Assembly (NCBI GenBank): GCA_905160935.1
Contig: CAJHZI010000474.1
Location: 124,001 to 188,000 of the forward strand
Reading direction: 5' to 3'
Origin: Enchytraeus crypticus
Taxonomy: Eukaryota; Annelida; Clitellata; Enchytraeida; Enchytraeidae
DNA length: 64,000 nt
Shown one piece after another: positions 45,201 to 53,842 of the stretch. Below the pieces are notes generated by a model. It ran no database searches, was not told the origin of the DNA, and saw only the letters and a program-made list of their open reading frames with translations. Made by a program: the position numbers and the translations under genes. Numbering within the stretch: the stretch's first letter is position 1; the number at the start of each line of letters is the position of its first letter.

Positions 45201-46297
45201 TCTAGAGATGAAACTGACGTTGACATCGGCTTTACAGCTTTTTATAGGCATGTATATCTCCTGTGTTCTGCCAAGTGGCAGGTCCAAGATGATATATATT
45301 TAGGTACATTTCTGTATCAGGGCCATTCTGGTAAGTTTATATTCCCACTACTGGAAAAGTTAACGTTAGCTTTCGAGACTGGAAGCTTTAGTAAAACTGC
45401 GGACTAGATATCTCTAATTTAATTAAACTAAAATCTGTTGTTCTTGAGAAAAATTGAGACTATAGCCTAAGATACGTATTTAGGTACCTTTATATAGTCG
45501 GATATCTTCGTTAATTATACAGTTGTTCTTTATTCCAGAATATTCTCTTCAAAGCACACATATCTGATTTATAGCAAATACAGCACACTTATATGTTTCT
45601 TCTTTATGTTTTATTTTAAAGAAGTCCATTCAATGTAAGGTCTATTCTTCAGCTCCCGGACACAACACGGGTAATCACTTCTCTCTTATTCACCTCTTTG
45701 TTTCAGATCTCGCTGAATCTCAACACAGACGAGCTCTGGAGATACGGCTGTGCTATATATCATGATGAACTGCCGATCCTCATCATCTCGCTCTCGTCTG
45801 TGGGCGGGCTCCTCGCTCTACTCGTCCTCTCTCTGATCGCACTGCTCGTGGCTCGTGGGCTCAAGGCTCGCCGCCGAGCAAACAAGAAGCTTCTAGAACC
45901 CTGGCACCTTCCCCGAGCCCACGTGACCTCCTCCGTCGTCAACTCCCTTAGGGCGCCTTCCCTCAGCGGGTCCTCCCTCAGGGGGCCTTCCCTCAGGGGG
46001 TCCTCTCTCAGGGGGCCCTCGCTTAGGGGGCAGGCCCTCAAGGTGCCCTCCCTCAGGGGACCGTCCCTCAGGGGACCGGCCCTAGGTGTGCCTTCCCTCA
46101 GGGGGCGGGCTCTCAGGCTCAGTTCAGCCTCAACCAGAGAGAAACAGCTCCCAGAACCGTTCAGTAGAGACATCGACGAGTTGTACGGTGCGAGCAAGAA
46201 AAAGCGCGCTCAAAAAGAGAGAGATTGTTCGGGTCTGTTCTGTGAGGATTTGAATGAGCTGGATTGCGATGATAAGATTCAAGAAACTGATTTGTAG
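27684..46297 (+). CDS. plexin-like mucin/IPT membrane protein, 12 exons
   Basis: Exons: 27684-27720, 29141-29164, 31748-31864, 32401-32511, 33985-34083, 35530-35625, 37103-38159, 39830-39991, 41422-41545, 42872-43225, 44271-44450, 45707-46297. All have AG/GT edges, phases agree at every junction, and the sum is 984 codons. Predicted order: signal peptide (1-24); four Cys-rich modules like furin/growth-factor-receptor repeats (25-161); Thr/Ala/Asn mucin-like repeats (about 169-418); three IPT/TIG-like domains (about 445-810; NPSIKSIHPTQ, GGTRLTVEGENLDAA, SLVCRMPAL, GNNFGLVAADNY); one helix (811-836); a basic, repeat-rich tail. Domains 2-3 resemble the juxtamembrane IPT domains of plexins, but no semaphorin domain or RasGAP tail is present. 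A surface receptor or adhesion role is inference. Missed 5' or internal exons are possible. Its introns are full of SINEs and LINEs. Confidence 0.85.
27815..27950 (+). repeat. interspersed repeat family H
   Basis: aagaatttaacgtcc, cctcgccataaggc and gccaaagcaccacgcgatga match 34845-35050 and 60718-60800; preceded by caatcaa units. No gene is seen from 27951 to 28734 apart from intron sequence. Confidence 0.6.
28735..29110 (+). mobile_element. LINE family B 3' end
   Basis: Encodes APQIWNSLP-like and HRRLKAFLFDLS runs, then ccgtttatggactcc and the gacagtagcactctaatt tail with TTG repeats. Confidence 0.8.
29141..29164 (+). CDS. plexin-like gene, exon 2 (24-nt micro-exon)
   Basis: tttttcgcag precedes gctatctctcaggactcaga plus attg, then gtaaga. 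Phase 1 in and out; adds YLSGLRI to complete the signal peptide. Without it exon 1 could still join exon 3 in frame. Confidence 0.6.
29988..30769. mobile_element. foldback/MITE-like element with ~120-bp inverted ends
   Basis: Left end tacagactgggggaaaaaaa and right end ttttttgccccagtctgta are inverted copies; the match continues inward for about 120 bases. Inside, a block with gcacttttttcgtagaaacg recurs in both orientations. No transposase is encoded; TA-rich target. Confidence 0.75.
30780..30965. repeat. tttagtttacatt minisatellite
   Basis: Degenerate short units tttagtttacattt repeated about 12 times. Confidence 0.85.
31150..31325 (+). mobile_element. LINE family C, 3' end
   Basis: gatcacgggacctgcaccg, cgtttggggtgaatcgattt and catcatccttgaatgagga with a TTA tail. 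Confidence 0.8.
31400..31655 (-). mobile_element. non-LTR C-terminal fragment (LINE H)
   Basis: Minus strand from about 31645 reads VVPVVIETMGPMNPERVDF, INGIGRLITEQTGDKRETS and QRLSMTLQRFHAVCFN, a C-terminal block common downstream of reverse transcriptase in some LINEs. A TTA run at 31657-31692 flanks it. Confidence 0.65.
31748..31864 (+). CDS. plexin-like gene, exon 3 (Cys module 1)
   Basis: Acceptor aacacag; phase 1. Encodes CSSGCEACGTSPSP, CSKCYPLHGLDGSG and RCI, then gtaagt. A nearer AG at 31758 would create an immediate stop and is ruled out by phase. Confidence 0.8.
32110..32337 (-). mobile_element. tRNA-like SINE, type D
   Basis: The minus strand begins gtggctcagtgtgtaagcgc (A-box-like) and has tcctgggatcaatgcc (B-box-like), ending near ttgacgttaaacc. 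One copy plus the inverted stub at 32343-32381. Confidence 0.55.
32285..32381. repeat. perfect 39-bp inverted repeat, 19-base loop
   Basis: 32285-32323 and 32343-32381 are exact reverse complements. The right arm ends 20 bases before the exon 4 acceptor. Confidence 0.95.
32401..32511 (+). CDS. plexin-like gene, exon 4 (Cys module 2)
   Basis: Acceptor attgtcag; encodes CSSGNSGCLLCTNTSVCDTC and a short spacer; donor gtgagt. Phase 1 in and out. Confidence 0.85.
32545..32765 (-). mobile_element. LINE A-related 3' element (A2)
   Basis: gtgcactgcctacgggcagg, then a tail (ttcttggggggtatttagc, gacgaggtggaccccta) shared with 41930-42165 and 46430-46625 and different from family A. Confidence 0.6.
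32845..32990. mobile_element. MITE-like element, decayed
   Basis: cttgagagcttgggtaa left, aatgagagcttgg right, and tagtatctaatatgag interior as in 23648-23835. Confidence 0.45.
32995..33440 (-). mobile_element. LINE family A 3' part
   Basis: Minus strand from 33352: MWLWRRMERTSWTQKV, NEEVLERVGTDRKLINVLR, RKKRWIGHILRGEGLLKEVI; 3' end ctctctctctctctttta. Confidence 0.9.
33660..33960. repeat. degenerate GATT repeat
   Basis: Loose gattgatt arrays in the intron before exon 5. Confidence 0.8.
33985..34083 (+). CDS. plexin-like gene, exon 5 (Cys module 3)
   Basis: Acceptor aactgcag; encodes DCSSNCAYCGTSGGGKCDVC and SSGYTLNTARQCL; donor gtaatt. Phase 1. Confidence 0.9.
34170..34306 (+). mobile_element. 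SINE family A, diverged
   Basis: cactggctggataatgtggg, tttaaatcctgg and gaaactgacggtaacatc keep the family order. Confidence 0.65.
34600..34800 (-). repeat. interspersed repeat family G
   Basis: Reverse of 44070-44250; ends ggccacttggcagtgcactg. Confidence 0.65.
34845..35050 (+). repeat. interspersed repeat family H
   Basis: caatcaatcaataagaatt, cctcgccataaggcaatgtc, gccaaagcaccacac. Confidence 0.6.
35437..35502 (-). mobile_element. 5S-derived SINE tail fragment
   Basis: tccatggtcattagtaatcg and gcattaattgcagccg match the tail of full copies. Confidence 0.55.
35530..35625 (+). CDS. plexin-like gene, exon 6 (Cys module 4)
   Basis: Acceptor gttgttcag; encodes ACPTYCSQCDPSTSKCLSC and SSGYELRTDGTCG; donor gtaag. 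Phase 1. Confidence 0.9.
35685..36115. mobile_element. MITE-like element carrying a SINE
   Basis: Left ctagggtgggaggaacgc and right cctagctctcaattcccac ends flank SINE B at 35780-35990. Confidence 0.6.
35780..35990 (+). mobile_element. tRNA-like SINE family B (nested)
   Basis: atgaagttttaaatgacaga, gggttcgaatcccagccgcg, ggtctaaattgcctaacgg. Confidence 0.85.
36145..36340. repeat. 22-bp hairpin plus ~60-bp tandem repeat
   Basis: Arms 36145-36166 and 36171-36192 are exact reverse complements around ccca. From 36180 about 2.5 units of a 60-bp repeat follow (acacatatacgtgttatct, tctagtgttatctaagacc); further unit pieces appear at 36478-36525 and 36975-37015. Confidence 0.9.
36340..36470 (+). mobile_element. 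tRNA-like SINE family A (reference copy)
   Basis: ggctggagccagtggcgatg, gtaagatactcgacc (A-box side), gggttcaaatcctgg (B box), gctcgcccgtcactgacatc, then gacgttaacattagctttac. Ends gagcca/tgggctc can pair as an acceptor stem. It interrupts the 60-bp repeat array. Confidence 0.9.
37103..38159 (+). CDS. plexin-like gene, exon 7 (mucin-like repeat and IPT 1 start)
   Basis: Acceptor gcatttcag; 351 whole codons, phase 1 in, phase 2 out before gtgagt. After IITDALEAST it is nearly pure T/A/N to about residue 418, then TEADKFSETFVTGIQTTW, a short poly-Thr run and the first IPT-like segment (NPTLITAALSRSYGIKAGGT). Confidence 0.85.
37123..37872 (+). repeat. 21-nt coding minisatellite (ANTATTT)
   Basis: About 35 units of gctaacacagcaacaacaac plus a, coding ANTATTT, grouped by periodic variant units coding ANTQTRT (about six times). 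Long antisense open frames here are by-products. Confidence 0.95.
38525..38775 (-). mobile_element. LINE family A 3' end
   Basis: Reverse frame: VNVLRNRKKRWIGHILRGEG, RGRPRLGMLDDLKTHSY, EEWRRYVPWTCQ. Confidence 0.9.
38780..39020 (+). repeat. interspersed repeat family F
   Basis: gttccccgtgttgtg, gtcgtagaaggcgac, gtcagaaagggtattcattt, gagcctaggct, tcgaatcccgaccctgg and a GATGAT tail; also 43485, 47840, 41820 and reverse at 27288, 43690, 52785. Confidence 0.7.
39160..39235 (+). repeat. LINE family B tail fragment
   Basis: gcgacagtagcgctctaatt. Confidence 0.5.
39443..39546 (+). repeat. diverged SINE family A copy
   Basis: aaggttcaaatccatgctct and gaaactgatgttaactttgc. Confidence 0.5.
39584..39716 (-). 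mobile_element. tRNA-like SINE family A
   Basis: gctggtaaagctaaggttag to gccactggctccagcc. Confidence 0.8.
39830..39991 (+). CDS. plexin-like gene, exon 8 (IPT 1 end, IPT 2 start)
   Basis: Acceptor taattacag; phase 2 in and out; encodes SSTVYEIRSPPADSAG, VLLEDITGKNWTVASFNY and NPSIKSIHPTQHLT; donor gtactg (weak). Confidence 0.85.
40219..41421 (+). repeat. decoy copies of the exon 9 acceptor
   Basis: Six degenerate copies of acttatag plus ctgaggtactcg at about 40219, 40257, 40309, 40347, 40396 and 41361, joined by GATT repeats, precede the used acceptor at 41421/41422 (cctatag, cggaggtactcg). An 870-base unrelated stretch (40440-41310) without genes interrupts them. Confidence 0.85.
41422..41545 (+). 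CDS. plexin-like gene, exon 9 (IPT 2)
   Basis: Phase 2 in, 0 out; encodes GGTRLTVEGENLDAAQSS, the typical opening of an IPT/TIG domain, then LTVTVQRRDQPLEV; donor gtgaga. Confidence 0.9.
41651..41780 (+). mobile_element. tRNA-like SINE family A
   Basis: ccagtggcgacgtcggtaag, gggttcagatcccgg, gaatctgacgttaacc. Confidence 0.85.
41820..41895 (+). repeat. family F 3' end
   Basis: tatcccgaccctagttaatc and GATGAT tail. Confidence 0.55.
41930..42165 (-). mobile_element. LINE A-related 3' element (A2)
   Basis: gcctactggcaggtccatgg, then gattctgcatatgacgagg as at 32545. Confidence 0.65.
42208..42271. repeat. AT microsatellite
   Basis: Pure AT run in the intron before exon 10. Confidence 0.95.
42535..42850 (+). 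mobile_element. LINE family C C-terminus and 3' end
   Basis: Codes WNSLPPDLRSRSTTST and FRCRLKTHLLPPW, then the family C tail; ends only about 20 bases before the exon 10 acceptor, with a TTATTA run. Confidence 0.8.
42872..43225 (+). CDS. plexin-like gene, exon 10 (IPT 2 end, linker, IPT 3 start)
   Basis: Acceptor cttcacacag; 118 codons, phase 0. DCFGVNVTSQSLVCRMPALN is the cysteine-bearing end of a plexin-type IPT domain; FNPRFIEVFPAADVIRVKTG opens the next. N-glycosylation motifs NVT, NST, NES. Donor gtttca is weak. Confidence 0.85.
43485..43850. repeat. family F, two inverted copies
   Basis: 43485-43675 (+) has gtgtgtcgtaaaaggcgat and tgcctaggctccagaaattt; 43690-43850 is the family's reverse (gggtcgggatatgtatagac, accatcagtcaatcc). 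Confidence 0.65.
43905..44027 (+). mobile_element. tRNA-like SINE family A
   Basis: gagccagtggcgaaatcggt, gggttcaaatcctggg, gacgttaacattagctttca. Confidence 0.85.
44070..44250 (+). repeat. interspersed repeat family G
   Basis: gtgcactgccatgtggcaag, cgctccataagagtactcc, ttatccataccttatgtagc. Confidence 0.65.
44271..44450 (+). CDS. plexin-like gene, exon 11 (IPT 3)
   Basis: Acceptor ctgttgacag; 60 codons, phase 0; GNNFGLVAADNYVITLGADN then CSVTTVVDNLIVCLPP, matching the plexin pattern G-x-C..(L/I)xCxPP; donor gtaagt. Confidence 0.9.
44480..44640 (+). mobile_element. 5S-rRNA-derived SINE, 5' part
   Basis: gaagttaaggtaagtcggcc, ttggttagtacaaggttggg, tgaccaccttggaggactga: the 3' half of 5S rRNA (GAAG..TAAG, GGTTAGTACTTGG, GACCxCCTGG). 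Confidence 0.75.
44660..44800 (+). mobile_element. LINE family C, 3' end
   Basis: caccgtttaggatatttttc, cgtttggggtgaatcgattt, catccctgtacgaggaaacg. Confidence 0.75.
44805..45075 (+). mobile_element. 5S-rRNA-derived SINE
   Basis: 5S-like head (gaagttaaggtaagtcggac, gtgaccacataggaggtccg), body with gtgatggaaggttattctta, tail with gcaattgatgcgccatcaaa and cttcctgacccagtatgccg. Confidence 0.8.
45132..45330 (+). repeat. SINE family A 3' part, then family G fragment
   Basis: 45132-45242: gcgggttcaaatgcagggct and gaaactgacgttgacatcg. 45255-45330: tgttctgccaagtggcaggt. From 45331 to 45706 only intron sequence. Confidence 0.6.
45707..46297 (+). CDS. plexin-like gene, exon 12 (membrane helix and tail)
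   Basis: Acceptor tgtttcag; phase 0; IPT 3 end (ISLNLNTDELWRYGCAIYHD), helix LPILIISLSSVGGLLALLVL and on, stop-transfer RGLKARRRANKK, then SLRGP repeats and an acidic end (DLNELDCDDKIQETDL); TAG at 46295. No AATAAA is evident within 400 bases. Confidence 0.9.
   Translation: MSLNLNTDELWRYGCAIYHDELPILIISLSSVGGLLALLVLSLIALLVARGLKARRRANKKLLEPWHLPRAHVTSSVVNSLRAPSLSGSSLRGPSLRGSSLRGPSLRGQALKVPSLRGPSLRGPALGVPSLRGRALRLSSASTREKQLPEPFSRDIDELYGASKKKRAQKERDCSGLFCEDLNELDCDDKIQETDL
45948..46125 (+). repeat. 15-nt coding repeat (SLRGP)
   Basis: About 11 units like ccctcagggggccttc coding SLRGP/SLRGS/SLRGQ with drift toward the 3' side. Confidence 0.9.
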
Positions 46298-46830: not shown

Positions 46831-46863
46831 TCATGACCTCATTTCATGTACGTACATCTGCAC
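46831..46863 (-). CDS. mad2l2: REV7 exon F (C-terminus)
   Basis: Acceptor ttgctgcttttag; encodes VQMYVHEMRS and TGA, aligning with the MQLYVEE end of the human protein. Confidence 0.8.
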   Translation of the reverse strand: MQMYVHEMRS

Positions 46864-49800
46864 CTAAAAGCAGCAACAACAACAATAACAATATCAGAAT
46901 GTCAAAAGAAAAATGGTTATGTTAAATGCGTAAATATGTGTATATGCATGTATGTGGTAATGTGCACATATATGTGCGCAAGAACGTATGTGTGACACGT
47001 GTGTGTGTTATTGTGTGTGTATGTGTATGCGTGTGTATGTATGTGTGTATGTATGTGTATGTATGTATGCGAGTGCATGTATATGTGTATGTGTATGTAT
47101 GTGTATGTGTGTGTGAACCTGTAAGGCACAAGAAAGCGCTGTAGCTAGAGGTTGTATTTATATGTGTGTATGTATGTGTTTGTGTATGTGTGTGTATGTA
47201 TGTGTGAGCATCTGTAAGGCACGAGAGAGAGCTGTTGCTAGGGGTTGTATGTGTGTATGTGTGTGTATGTGTGTGTGTATATGTGTGAATGTATATGTGT
47301 GAGCACCTGTAAGGCACGAGAGAGAGCTGTTGTTGGAGGTTGTATGTATGTATGTGTGTATGTGTTTGTGTATGTGTATATGTGTATGCACCTGTAAGGC
47401 ACGAGAGTGCGCTGTAGCTAGAGGTTGTATGTGTGTATGTTTGTGTATGTATGTATGTATATGTGTGTATGTATGTGTGAGCACCTGTAGGGCACGAGAG
47501 AGAGCTGATGCTAGAGGTTGTATCAACGTTTCTCTGGTGAGCTCATCTGATTCACCCGCCTCTATCCACGCTGTGTCCTACCCCAATCAATCAATCAATT
47601 AATCACTCTAGAGCAAATAACTACATTCTCTGACTAACAATGTGGACCACTTGCTAATAAAAACAAGCCATACAGCCTTATATAGGCCTATAAGTGATTT
47701 TTTAATGATAGAAATGGAAATAAACTTTATTATTTATATTTATAACTCATTTTCCTTAATGACCATCTCGGTTCACACTTATGGACACTTACTTGATTCA
47801 CACTGGTTATGTCTTATTTTTGAACACGGTAGTATGTTTCCGTTTTTTCCACGTTGGTTGCTGACGAATACATAAGTCGTTGACTTCACGTGTCGTAAAA
47901 TGCGACGAAGAACTAACATCCGAACCCACGTCAGAAAGGGCATTCAGTTGGTGAGCGCCTAGGCTCCAGAAACTATCATAAAATTTTCTATTCACAATCC
48001 CTGTCGAACAGGGATTCGAGGGAAGATGATGATGATGTATGTGTTTGTACTGACTGTATACTGTGTATCTCTAATCGCTTGATCTATATAAACTGTACAG
48101 GGAGGATCCATTTAGTGTGTTCTAAATATATAACTAAATATGTCACACTGGTAAAGCTGGTAAAGCTAATGTTAACGTCAGTTTCCTCACTCGAAAACGA
48201 TGTTAGTGACGGCCAAGCACGCGATTTGAACCCCGCACATACTGATCCGCGGTCGAGTATCTTACAGACATCGCTCCAGCCAGAGCTTTCTACCACTACA
48301 CTGTTAATAGACAGTAGCAACAACTCTAGGACGTGCCTGACATCCCTTCAGGAGGAAACCAGACGTTAAATGATCAAAATCTTAATAAGTGAGAAGCTTA
48401 CACGTAGGCACTGTTGTTGTTGTAGCTCTAGATAAGCTAGTCGATTAGTACAGACCAGTACGGACCAAGTACAATCTACAAAATAGTACAATATATCAGC
48501 ACAGACCAAGTACGATCCACACTATAGTACAATGTATCAGTAGGCCTACAGACCAAGTACAATCTACAACATAGTACAATACATCAGTACAGACCAAGTA
48601 CAATCTACAACATAGTACAATACATCAGTACAGACCAAGTACAATCTACAATATAGCACAGTACATCAGTAGAGACCAGTACAATGTAAAAGTAATACAA
48701 TTATACAGCAGCCAAATCCATAAATAGGCATCCCTATATACAAAATACAATTTACACATCAGTACAATTACACAAGTTAATCTTTGCTTTATATTTTTTA
48801 TACGATAAACGAGAGAGATCCACGATCATTTATTTGTAACTGAATCAAAAAACATAACATAACGGCACACTGGGTCAGGAAGCATATATGCTTGTTTAAG
48901 ACCCATTTCCTCCTTCCTCTCCAAGGTTATTAGTAATCGTTGCCTTTTGATAGCGCATCAATTGCAACCGGCGCGGATTTAAGAATAACCTTCCATCACC
49001 CTGGGGTTTTTTCCTTCCTAAGCTTTTACCAACACTCGGTCTTCCAAGGTGGTCACCCACAAAGTACTAACCGAGGTCGATGCAGCTTAATTTCGATAAT
49101 TGACGCGCAACTAAACCAAGTGCGCTAATCCCGCCGTCTAATATCCACAAAGCGCATACAACGAGATAGACCACAAATAAAACGGTCGTCAGAAAGAGCA
49201 CAGTTGAGCTCTATCTAGCTGACTACCGGAAACATGGAAACATAGTTACATAGCAACATTCATGTTGTACAAAATTAGAGATAATAAACATTAATGACGA
49301 AAATAGCATTAAACTGCAAAGAGCAAAAGATTGCTGACTAATTAAAACAGAAACTAAAGATTTATAAAACTAAAAATGGGTTAAAATTAAAACCAGATTC
49401 AAACAATAGTACAGTAATAAACACACATACACACACACAGACCATCAGGCAGAGAAACACATACACACACACACAGAGTAAGAAATACACACACATACAC
49501 ACACATCGTAAGAAATACACACACATACACACACATAGTAAGAAATACACACACATACACACACATAGTAAGAAATACACACACATACACACACATAGTA
49601 AGAAATACACACACATACACACACATAGTAAGAAATACACACACATAGTAAGAAATACACACACATAGTAAGAAATACACACACATACACGCACATAGTA
49701 AGAATTACACACACACACACACACACGTAGTAAGAAATACACACACATACACACACATAGCAATCAATACACATACATACACATACAGAGTAAGAAACAC

Positions 49801-51941
49801 ACACATACACACACACAGACAGACATGCACACATACAGACCATCAGGCAGAGAAACACACACATAGTAAGAAATACACACACATAGTAAGAAATACACAC
49901 ACATAGTAAGAAATACACACACAAACACACATAGCAATCAATACACCCATATATATACACACAGAGTAAGAAACACACACATACATACACACACACCACC
50001 AGATACACACCATCAGGCAGAGGTTTGAGTTGACTCGCCGCACAGCTTATCTTCAGCAGCAGATCTCTGAACCTCTGCTCCAAGTCAATCACTTCCTCAA
50101 ACCTGTGAACATAATAATAATCTATTCCTTTTATTTCCATAATCAATCTGACAAACCGCAGACTGTAACAATATAACATAACATAACATAACGGCACACT
50201 GGGTCAGGAAGTACAGATGCTTGTTTAAGACCCATTTCCTCCTTCCTCTCCATGGTTATAAGTAATCGTTGCCTTTTGATTGCAGCCGGCGCGGATTTAA
50301 GAATAACCTTCCATCACCCAGGGATTTTTTCCTTCCTAAGCTTTTACCAACACTCGGTCTTCCAAGGTGGTCACCCACAAAGTACCAACCGAGGTCGATG
50401 CAGCTTAACTTCGATAATTGACGCGCAACTAAACCAAGTGCGCTAATCCCGCCGTCCAATATGACAGATAACATACCAATGCATCAGGTACAGGCAGAAA
50501 TTCAACACAAAATCAAAAATACAAGATTGAAAATAATAAGATAACATTAAAAAATATTGACCAAGGCAAACTTATCCTACTTTAAGAGTTCTATAGTCAC
50601 ACATAGCTATCTAAGAATTATTAAACAATAGTAGAAAACAATTTCAGCAGTTTAAAAAAACAGGTAGGCATTGTAAGTTAAAAGTTAATAATTTCTAGCA
50701 TCATTAAGTATAACAGGGGTAATAAAGTTCTTGTCACTTAAACTATTGCCTTTAGTACGAAGTGTGAAATTTCTACCGGCAACATTTCGTCTAGTTAGAT
50801 ATGGGTGATAGGCAAGTGGAGGCAAAAGCGGGGCAAGTAGATGGGCGCTATCACTATGTACATCTTTAAAAAGTTTATAATCAGCTGAAGCACACAAATC
50901 TTCAAAACTGGATTCCAAGTTGCAGAAATTTGCCTTTTTTGCTCGTCTTAAAAAAAGCTTCAAGTTTCTTTCTATCTTCCATAGTGGTAAAACCCCACCA
51001 AAATTGGGATGCATAGAGAAGCCAATTTAATGTAGATGCTTGAAATACTCTCTGAACGAGTACGTTGGATAGTCCTTTAGTGCATAGACTATACAAAGCA
51101 AAAATATTGCTGTAACTTGAGGATAAGAGATTATTTATGTGAGTAGAAAAAGAAAAATTGGAGGAGATTGTAACACCCAAACATTTCATATCTGACATGC
51201 GTTCTATGCCTTCAAGATGAGGGGCTGCAGAAGCCTGCCTCTTATTATTTGGGGAGTGGAATATAATTTCTTTAGATTTGATTCTATTTAATTTTAGATT
51301 GTTAAATTTGGCCCAATGTTCAATATGGGCAAGTTCAACTTCTATTAGATGAATATTGGATGCAGGCATAATTAAGTATGTGTCATCAGCATATTTAAGT
51401 ACCGAGTTTGATTTACTCAAGGTCTTGAGATCTGATGCTGTAACAACGAAAGCAGGAGGTCCAATGGCAGAGCCTTGAACTACGCTAGCATTAATTGTTG
51501 CACAAGAAGAAGTACGACCGTCAAAAATTGTCCAATGAGAGCGATTAATTAAAAAACTAGCAATCCATTTCGTTACAGGGCTTGGTACGTCTAGCAAGCT
51601 AAATTTATCAAGTATGTGCGAATGTCTGACAGTGTCAAACGCTTTACTAAAATCTAGAGCAATCACTCTGACAAAAGGTTGTGATTCTAGTAGTGAACTT
51701 ATAGTATGAAATAGGAATATAAGAGCAGCAGTAGTAGATCCAGTAGGGCGAAAAGCAAATTGATTAGTAAAATCTAGATGAGAGGGTGGAGATGAAAATG
51801 CTCGATATGTGTATCTTGAGGTAATAATTCGCTCAATAAGACAAGAGAGAACGGAGGTTATGTAATTAGGACGATAATCTGATGGTTGCATCAATAACAT
51901 CAATCAATCAATCAATCAATCACTTCCTCAAACCTGTGAAC

Positions 51942-51977
<36 letters not shown>

Positions 51978-53842
51978 GTCTTTCCTCAAACCTGTGAACA
52001 TCAATCAATCAATAAATTAATTAATTAATTAATCAATCAATCAATCACTTCCTCAAACCTGTGCACATCAATCAATAAATCAATCAAATCAATCAATCAA
52101 TCAATCAATCACTTCCTCAAACCTGTGAACATCAATCACTCAATCAAATCAATCAATCAATCACTTCCTCAAACCTGTGAACATCAATCAATCACTCAAT
52201 CAAATCAAATCAATCAATCAATCAATCACTTCCTCAAACCTGTGAGCATCAATCAATCAATCAATCAATCAATTACTTCCTCAAACCTGTGCATATCAAG
52301 CAATCAATCAATCAATCAACTGACGCTAATCACTTGATCAAATAGCTGAACGAGTGTGACATACGTTAAGAAGAAGAATCAATAAAAGAAGAATTACTTA
52401 AATTCAACCAATCAATCAATTAAGTTAAATAAATCAATCTATCAATTAAATTAAATCAATCAGTCAGTTAATTAAAATTGAGTAAAATGAAATCAATCAA
52501 TAGAGTTTATCACATAAGTGAAATCAATATATTAGTCAAGCAATTAAGAGAAATCAATCAATCTGTCAATTATCTACGTTAAGTCAATAAATCAGTCAGA
52601 GAATAAAGTGAAATCAATTAATTAGTTAATCAATATAATGAAATCAAGCAATCAATCAGTCCTTCAATTAAATGAAGTCAATCAATCGGTCCGTCACTAG
52701 TCAATTCATTTACACACACTGTACAACAAAACTAATCCCGTCTATAGAGAATTTTCACGAGGAATCGGACGTCAAACCTTTCTTATTCATCATCATCATC
52801 ATCTTCCCTATAATCTTAGTTTAATTGGGGCGGGATACAAATAGACTGTCTCAAATCCTCTCTGTGGTACATCATATCATCAGTCAATCCACTATTTGAG
52901 ACTTTTTCATTCGCTTAAATTTTTTTAGCAATTTCTGGAGCCTAGGGAGGAAATGACAAAAAGTACAAAAACAGAAACCAAGAAAGAAAACTATGTAGCA
53001 CATGCGATATGTCGTGTGTAACTACGCGAAACAAAAAAATCATACACGGCTGCTGTAAGAACCTGAGATTTTGCTGATTGAAGTCATGCTGAAGTTCTAT
53101 AACAAACTGTTCCATACAAGAGCTGCTCTCTCTCTCTCTAATCTCCACAACTACTCTCTCCACTCGACCCTGATCAGTCTTCATCATATCACATACACCC
53201 TGAAGTACGCCGTCTATGTACTGTTGTACACCCGAGTGTACACATATCTGTGCATACACATACAAATTAACATGAGAGTAATAAATAATGTAGTATTCAA
53301 TAATGTCCAGTAGTACATACATTTTAAGTCTTACTCATGCTTAGTCATTAACGTGCATAGAGAGAGCCAAATATCTCAATATCGCAGTGGCTAGAGGCGT
53401 CAGGTAAAGTGATGAAGTTTTAAATGACAAACCTTGAGGTGAATTGAACCCTTGTGGGTTCGAATCTCAGCCACGCTGATCGATAGTAAAATCTGGGACA
53501 CTCACAGAACTGGTTACATATAAAATGGACTCAATTGCTAATTGGCTTAAAAAGTGTTTAATATTCTAATTGGTTTAAACATATGGTATTAAAGGTGATA
53601 GATATTAACGTGGTTGATCATTTCATTAGAGCGTGTTATTATTAGTATGTACATCCCTCAATGCTACGGAAGAGCTTGCATCACAAACGGGCCAACAACA
53701 ACAACAATAGAACACAGGACCTGTACAGGTATCTGATATTTGCGATGAGGTTTGAAGATTCCTCTAGGGTAAATGTCCCTCGAGTAGAGTACAGAATGAA
53801 TAACTACATTGAGAAACTCTCGCATTAGTTCAATCCACAAAT
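46831..53842 (-). CDS. mad2l2: MAD2L2/REV7 HORMA protein (5' end incomplete)
   Basis: Six minus-strand exons: A 53842-53721, B 53247-53063, C 50102-50011, D 48475-48402, E 47577-47485, F 46863-46831 (TGA at 46831-46833). With one base from an upstream exon they make exactly 200 codons including stop, without breaks. Compared with vertebrate MAD2L2 the blocks REFLNVVIHSVLYSRDIYP, KYQIPVQ, QQYIDGVL, VERVVVEI, LLLKIS, CTWSVLV, AWIEAGESDE, LIQPL and QMYVHE fall in order and, apart from a two-residue insertion before VERVVVEI and a small gap before LIQPL, at the same spacing; the Tyr of QQYI and the Trp of AWI, both used in partner binding in the human protein, are kept. REV7 is the accessory HORMA subunit that joins REV3 and REV1 in translesion synthesis and SHLD3 in shieldin. 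Only about 12 N-terminal residues are missing (see 55522-55549). Introns hold LINE, SINE and exon-edge arrays. Confidence 0.9.
47118..47430 (-). repeat. array of REV7 exon E donor copies
   Basis: Four copies (ending about 47118, 47212, 47305, 47391) of the last ~36 bases of exon E with its donor (ctcgtgccttacag, then gtgctcac), separated by ATGT/GT repeats; unit about 90 bases. They lie downstream of the real donor, inside the intron. Confidence 0.9.
47485..47577 (-). CDS. mad2l2: REV7 exon E
   Basis: Acceptor gattggggtag; 31 codons DTAWIEAGESDELTRETLIQ and PLASALSRALQ, phase 0 at both ends; donor gtgctc. Confidence 0.85.
47840..48040 (+). repeat. interspersed repeat family F
   Basis: gtgtcgtaaaatgcgacg, gtcagaaagggcattcagtt, gcctaggctccagaaac, GATGAT tail. 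Confidence 0.7.
48155..48281 (-). mobile_element. tRNA-like SINE family A
   Basis: gctggtaaagctaatgttaa to cgctccagcc; followed by a LINE C-like end (gacgtgcctgacatccc) at 48328-48368. Confidence 0.85.
48402..48475 (-). CDS. mad2l2: REV7 exon D
   Basis: Acceptor ctattttgtag; phase 1 in, 0 out; DCTWSVLVCTNRLAYLELQQ then QQCLR; donor gtaagc. Spacing from CTxxVLV to the exon E Trp equals the human protein exactly. Confidence 0.85.
48476..48705 (-). repeat. array of REV7 exon D acceptor copies
   Basis: About five units of roughly 41 bases upstream of exon D; each has gttgtag followed by attgtacttggtctgtactg, i.e. the acceptor plus the first ~13-20 coding bases. Confidence 0.9.
48845..49137 (-). 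mobile_element. 5S-rRNA-derived SINE, full-length
   Basis: Minus strand: gcgcacttggtttagttgcg, gaagttaagct-like 5S part with ctcggttagtactttgtggg and gaccaccttggaagaccga, body gatggaaggttattcttaaa, tail ending cccagtgtgccgttatg. Confidence 0.85.
49425..49990 (-). repeat. CA-rich minisatellite with exon C donor copies
   Basis: Units of about 30 bases (agtaagaaatacacacacat) include two copies (49438-49458, 49837-49857) of the exon C 3' edge ctctgcctgatgg with its GT. The real edge is at 50011. Confidence 0.85.
50011..50102 (-). CDS. mad2l2: REV7 exon C
   Basis: Acceptor attatgttcacag; phase 2 in, 1 out; FEEVIDLEQRFRDLLLKISC then AASQLKPLPD; donor gtgtgt. Confidence 0.9.
50165..50462 (-). mobile_element. 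5S-rRNA-derived SINE, full-length
   Basis: Nearly identical to 48845-49137 but lacks part of the gcgcatcaatt segment; 60 bases upstream of the exon C acceptor. Confidence 0.85.
50685..51903 (-). mobile_element. non-LTR retrotransposon (LINE D), RT nearly open
   Basis: Minus-strand frame 51903-50902 (333 codons) holds palm motifs ALDFSKAFDTVRH (A), VVQGSAIGPPAFVV (B) and LKYADDTYLIMP (C); after one shift the frame 51014-50685 gives the C-terminus (YHPYLTRRNVAGRNF). 5'-truncated where it meets the exon C array. Youngest-looking LINE here, but it lacks endonuclease. Confidence 0.9.
51904..52330 (-). repeat. array of REV7 exon C acceptor copies
   Basis: Seven copies (51921, 51979, 52046, 52110, 52162, 52228, 52274) of a 23-bp block containing tgttcacag and gtttgaggaagtg, in CAAT repeats. 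Four copies match the true exon C edge at 50090-50112 at all 23 bases. Confidence 0.95.
52331..52720. repeat. degenerate CAATCAAT/ATCAATTA repeat
   Basis: Loose continuation of the tetranucleotide repeat without exon-edge copies. Confidence 0.8.
52785..52955 (-). repeat. family F 3' part
   Basis: CATCAT run, ggggcgggatacaaatagac, catatcatcagtcaatcc, tttctggagcctaggg. Confidence 0.65.
53063..53247 (-). CDS. mad2l2: REV7 exon B
   Basis: Acceptor tgtatgcacag; phase 0 in, 2 out; GVQQYIDGVLQGVCDMMK, RVERVVVEIRERESSSCMEQ, FVIELQHDFNQQNL; donor gttctt (weak). Confidence 0.9.
53400..53640 (+). mobile_element. tRNA-like SINE family B
   Basis: gatgaagttttaaatgac, gggttcgaatctcagcc, ggtattaaaggtgatagata. 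Confidence 0.8.
53721..53842 (-). CDS. mad2l2: REV7 exon A
   Basis: Acceptor ttgttgttgtag; starts with two bases (phase 1); DLWIELMREFLNVVIHSVLY, SRDIYPRGIFKPHRKYQIPV, Q; donor gtcctg (weak). Confidence 0.85.

Follow-up and report, generated by a model that had tools for sequence, protein, structure and literature searches.

The REV7/MAD2L2 gene of Enchytraeus crypticus, on the minus strand at positions 46831-53842 of the window (the whole 64,000-nucleotide stretch of contig CAJHZI010000474.1 analysed here), carries within its introns tandem copies of the edges of its own exons. What process produced these copies, do they exceed what so repetitive a gene would yield by chance, and do they take any part in splicing? 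As set out below, the pattern is real and is of a known kind, the "mirages" described in lancelets, found here in a new host phylum and extended to the edges formed by stop codons.

Four splice edges of REV7 recur in intronic arrays

Over residues 3-191, the draft protein resembles solved structures of REV7 (E=1e-26), and the gene model comprises six exons encoding 198 residues, with GT-AG boundaries at 5/5 introns and consistent phases. No N-terminal exon was found at the locus, and a large protein set yielded no REV7 homologue at E 0.001. Edges were examined as 24-nt windows centred on the splice site and compared on the same strand over distances of up to 2.5 kb with simple repeats masked, a score of at least 20/24 being counted as a copy. 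Four of the 11 testable edges, two donors and two acceptors, recur in intronic arrays, which together hold 17 decoys, 15 of them retaining AG or GT. Neither edge of exon A, the first exon identified (53842-53721), or of exon B (53247-53063) has a copy at 20/24. Both edges of exon C (50102-50011) have intronic copies, the exon itself being its single match in the 524-Mb genome. The acceptor edge of exon D (48475-48402) forms the terminal unit of a 41-bp array, and the last 39 nt of exon E (47577-47485) together with the donor likewise form a terminal array unit. Exon F (46863-46831), the last coding exon including the stop, corresponds to the C-terminal end of REV7 in the solved structures. All of these exons, and the arrays described next, are on the minus strand.

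The exon C acceptor array (51890..52319) is based on (GATT)n and contains seven decoys spaced 47-67 bp apart, with first exonic bases at 52286, 52239, 52174, 52122, 52058, 51991 and 51933; AG is kept in 7/7, core identity is 21-28/28 and 18 exonic nt are captured. The nearest of these decoys lies 1.8 kb from exon C, the intervening DNA holding a reverse-transcriptase fragment (50688..51903, minus strand; PF00078, E=7e-21 on 50905-51903) and a 5S-rRNA-like SINE (50178..50465, minus strand; RF00001 at 25.7 bits, under the gathering score of 38). It is likely that this transposon insertion came after the array had formed. A second same-strand copy of the SINE is found within the REV7 introns at 48863-49147; Rfam at gathering scores and a tRNA scan returned nothing over the 64-kb window. 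On the other side of exon C, the TG-rich donor array (49411..50010) has two decoys (49841 and 49443; GT kept in 2/2) that are identical at 18-19/23 positions and capture about 12 exonic nt, and the repeat run extends up to the exon. The exon D acceptor array (48450..48701) is a 41-bp minisatellite devoid of any simple-repeat tract, its units 41-47 bp apart; the four decoys (48645, 48604, 48563 and 48516) are 34-38/41 identical, capture about 20 exonic nt and keep AG in 3/4. Finally, the unit of the exon E donor array (47056..47525) consists of the exon E end, the donor and a CA/TA tract, repeated at distances of 85-95 bp; its four decoys, with last exonic bases at 47392, 47307, 47212 and 47119, are 40-44/48 identical, capture 39 exonic nt and keep GT in 3/4. 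Arrays are thus contiguous with 3/4 of the repeated REV7 edges, and at exons D and E they end in the real edge as their terminal unit.

A preliminary description of this locus had counted correctly the copies at the exon C acceptor (seven), exon C donor (two) and exon E donor (four), while the "about five" that it gave for the exon D acceptor are four decoys plus the real site, and its 10-36 captured coding bases become about 12-39 nt when measured. Three of the four arrays have units ending in simple repeat, as the description says of all of them; the exception is the 41-bp unit of exon D.

Repeated edges and the repeat background of the gene

At 20/24, 4/11 REV7 edges have copies, compared with none in one simulated first-order Markov sequence of 64 kb, in which the maximum was 19. 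Across the window, 7.1% of positions reach the same score, against which 4/11 gives a binomial P=0.0055; inside the REV7 gene the figure rises to 22.4% and the excess at edges is not significant (P=0.22). Positions at this score make up 976/1943 of those in arrays, 480/2011 in transposons, 41/2353 in other intron and 20/455 in exon interiors. We also placed the five arrays of the gene at random, barring any placement covering more than 45 nt of an exon. Three array ends are observed to lie 10-45 nt inside an exon (D, E and the C donor), an outcome of three or more being reached in 0.7% of random trials (P=0.007) and of four or more in 0.03%. As REV7 was picked for its pattern, all of these P values are post hoc and serve as guides only, and as the gene is itself repeat-laden, the fairer chance figures are mixed. 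The initial view that four arrays in one gene are more than chance therefore stands against simulation and for the placement of array ends within exons, and does not stand against the repeat background of the gene. The latter is what would be expected if the overlaps were coincidental, i.e. if in an array-rich genome some arrays were bound to run across exon edges, a reading to which the other genes of the contig are also relevant.

Coding edges elsewhere on the contig

The survey covered 200 kb of the same contig, in which ten open frames were scanned against Pfam, and 40 kb more, in which frames were read by eye. XXYLT1, which lies about 50 kb from REV7 and matches the solved structure 4wlg (E=2.5e-89), was the sole other conserved gene of several exons to be recognised. 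XXYLT1 is not a blind sample, since it was found partly through an adjoining array-like frame. Mirages occur at 3/6 of its splice edges and at its stop codon, so that REV7 is not the exceptional gene it had been taken for. At the exon 2 donor (L017:8370-8522), three ungapped copies stand in 24-bp units (8 codons), with a shuffled maximum of 15/22, and all three decoys retain GTAAGT and are in frame. At the exon 3 donor (L018:131-761), there are 22 copies in 25-bp units, GT being present in 22/22 (shuffled maximum 15/23). For the exon 4 acceptor, whose flank falls under the simple-repeat mask, the score is 15 when centred and 22 when shifts of up to 8 nt are allowed, and it was counted from local alignments instead: three copies (59/65, 48/58 and 59/73 bases) score 60-100, compared with a shuffled maximum of 24. 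The exon 1 donor, exon 2 acceptor and exon 3 acceptor have no copies that count; at the last of these, 20/24 is reached only off-centre in a TG repeat and was left uncounted.

The fourth XXYLT1 array (L018:2578-3137; contig C381, 228001-238000) does not involve splicing. The repeated edge consists of the last codons, the stop and a GATT tract, with no splice site there. Shuffled sequence reached at most 21, while the nine downstream copies score 34-50; in the alignment, the coding end coincides with the final residue of the protein chain in the solved structure. Similarly, a C-type lectin frame (PF00059) terminates in an array (L012:8551-8994) whose units of about 34 bp, recognised by eye, repeat the stop codon of the frame and about 10 coding bases. 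Thus, the rule seems to concern coding edges beside repeats rather than splicing. Elsewhere, a 15-bp tandem repeat (window positions 45943-46106) lies inside a long open frame after a possible membrane segment, for which there is a weak Pfam hint.

The zinc-finger genes, located by protein motif, gave no repeated edge at 20/24 among 12; donor exons were assigned to them by inference, a thirteenth row lacking an acceptor was dropped, and other zinc-finger genes were not picked up. Repeated splice edges therefore number 7/17 in REV7 and XXYLT1, and 7/29 when the zinc-finger edges, which are mutually related and hence not independent, are added. Part (1695-1726) of a probable zinc-finger exon ending at 1763 has a diverged copy 166 bp downstream (1861-1892; 23/28, score 31 versus a shuffled maximum of 27), which stops short of the donor and was not counted.

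These results bear on two of the alternatives to be considered. Coincidence draws on the 0/12 zinc-finger edges as well as on the near copies available to 22.4% of REV7 positions, but it sits poorly with the excess of array ends just inside exons over random placement and with the 3/6 XXYLT1 edges, and we regard it as improbable. That the arrays are products of assembly, with repeats collapsed or over-expanded, has in its favour that repeats can be misplaced in hybrid assemblies. Against it, the REV7 units vary among themselves in sequence and spacing, the arrays of a second gene obey the same rule, and PacBio reads are reported to have contributed to the E. crypticus assembly (PMC8460440); an artefact is thus extremely unlikely.

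Decoys and the use of splice sites

Could the decoys be working sites, tuning the REV7 isoform or dose through poison transcripts or an in-frame insert? AG or GT is retained in 15/17, and use of the first exon E decoy (47392) is predicted to insert 31 residues in frame, repeating the exon E end. In human UBC, tandem AGGT sites are reported to be used stochastically, and the UBC repeats resemble the C-acceptor and E-donor arrays of REV7 in consisting of tandem AG|GT units (PMC10809524); the dual-specific AGGT motif, able to act as donor and acceptor, occurs in both of these arrays as a matter of sequence only. The UBC repeats, however, are coding and used, whereas those described here are intronic and AG|GT is lacking at 5/7 repeated splice edges, on which count we also discarded the idea that AG|GT generally shields such arrays from harm. 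Moreover, the other 16 REV7 decoys are predicted either to cause a frameshift or a stop (15/17) or, in the case of 47212, to be in frame with GT lost. Core identity is in any case high, so the kept dinucleotides require no selection. Lancelet mirages reportedly leave splicing undisturbed, and the occurrence of like arrays at stop-codon edges, which have no splice role, argues against a role in splicing. Together, these points make working decoys distinctly unlikely.

The AGGT words raise a further possibility, namely that the copies record introns arising or growing as AG|GT proto-splice sites were duplicated in tandem. The gene has 21 AGGT words on its sense strand, of which 11 fall in the exon C acceptor array and in the exon E donor array, the real edge of exon E included, and intron gain from mirages has been proposed for lancelet globins. 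Yet the word is absent from the exon C donor and exon D acceptor arrays and from all listed copies of the XXYLT1 exon 2 and exon 3 donors, and AG|GT is found at 2/4 repeated versus 3/7 unrepeated REV7 edges. We consider this account very unlikely.

Relation to mirages and other minisatellites

The preliminary description knew of no named account of such arrays. There is one: minisatellite-like tandem repeats across exon-intron boundaries are reported in the amphioxus Adh3, globin, troponin C and PGBD5 genes under the name of mirages (PMC3087553, PMC3902484). As in those genes, the REV7 arrays span edges, being contiguous at the exon E donor and exon D acceptor, separated by transposons at the exon C acceptor and limited to two copies at the exon C donor; in both systems donors and acceptors are involved and many units keep AG or GT (15/17 in REV7). 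Unit lengths reported for mirages, 10-72 bp in Adh3, 150-160 bp in globins and 60 and 108 bp in PGBD5, scatter around those of REV7 (41-47 bp for exon D, 47-67 bp for the exon C acceptor and 85-95 bp for exon E).

A further likeness may lie in the behaviour of the outermost unit. Lancelet accounts speak of an "exclusion of cluster boundaries" from homogenisation. In REV7, the true edge of exon E differs from 4/4 decoys at two sites, and 4/4 exon D decoys have T where the exon has C. These differences suggest that the working edge may evolve apart from its array, as the boundary units of lancelet mirages are reported to do.

The two systems differ in host and in extent. The hosts in those reports are lancelets, while the present host is an annelid: the COX1 on its mitochondrial contig shares 95% identity over 446 residues with entries from Lumbriculus and enchytraeids among the best 120 matches, on which ground a lancelet origin was rejected. 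That COX1 reads through with code 5 excludes codes such as the ascidian one and no more. An arthropod origin gained no support, although the lack of a match to the cuticle family PF00379 says little, its control having matched nothing either, and a retroelement frame of the window gave 70 hits, most of them unnamed, with no taxonomic signal. Here four edges are affected in one gene, and stop-codon edges too, the latter going unmentioned in the available parts of the lancelet accounts. Among the matches listed in open-licence literature, there is no annelid case of mirages or of repeated splice sites, which is weak evidence of absence. Earthworm metallothionein introns are reported to contain minisatellites, with exon-edge copies unmentioned in the accessible portion of that account, and the words "minisatellite" and "splice" are absent from the main text of the genome paper on E. 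crypticus (PMC8460440).

Other animals offer looser parallels. In human segmental-duplication genes, minisatellites with mean units of 30 bp are reported at exon-intron boundaries, where they can create new splice sites (PMC2812944); those cases concern recent primate paralogs with new introns supported by transcripts, whereas the present arrays are described from DNA and exon C matches nothing in the genome but itself. In C. elegans, a minisatellite is reported to be enriched close to alternative splicing regions (PMC4039745).

A proposed mechanism

We propose that these arrays are mirages formed by near-neutral tandem duplication, seeded where a coding edge abuts repeats, and put the probability of this reading at roughly 0.78. 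Arrays would form where the coding edge adjoins a simple or minisatellite-like repeat. Where exon and repeat have a short word in common, the sequence across the edge could be duplicated through slippage, template switching or unequal exchange, after which the outermost unit would remain the working exon edge and the other units would be decoys. Duplications would survive on the non-coding side only, because of selection against changes inside the exon, and decoys would be retained since splicing ordinarily relies on the true site and the arrays have almost no effect on fitness. The structure of the arrays, their contiguity with three of the four REV7 edges, the divergence of their units and their presence at another gene and at stop codons are observed; the duplication process, its seeding by shared words, its neutrality and the non-use of decoys are what we infer.

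That tandem duplication within introns rich in repeats captured the exon edges, as originally suggested, remains the best reading. The exonic breakpoints fall on words that also occur in the adjoining repeat, namely GATTGA for exon C, read off the sequence, and ATACA for exon E. Five-mers of the exon E end are present in the spacer in 4/56 cases; the corresponding count for exon C is not usable, its spacer having contained pieces of copies. Several observations weigh against the mirage account: the exon C donor has two short copies (12 exonic nt) lying in a TG repeat, contiguity at the exon C acceptor is unseen, exon D is without simple repeat, the zinc-finger edges are 0/12, and the excess within the gene has P=0.22.

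Implications

A phenomenon reported from lancelets is hereby carried to a distant animal phylum, and the addition of stop-codon edges makes the mutational process separable from splicing. Whether mirage formation is genome-wide in this annelid, acting on any coding edge that touches a repeat, be it splice site or stop codon, and independent of that in lancelets, is a more tentative matter, to which we give slightly less than an even chance. With as many as 22 almost identical decoys next to a genuine site, the arrays offer a natural experiment on how the spliceosome passes over such decoys and on whether arrays of this kind contribute to intron gain, and they call for caution in gene-prediction and read-mapping pipelines applied to genomes of this kind. 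If the process is genome-wide, the genes of this worm would be bordered by decoys of their own making, from which new splice sites, terminal extensions and introns could continually arise.
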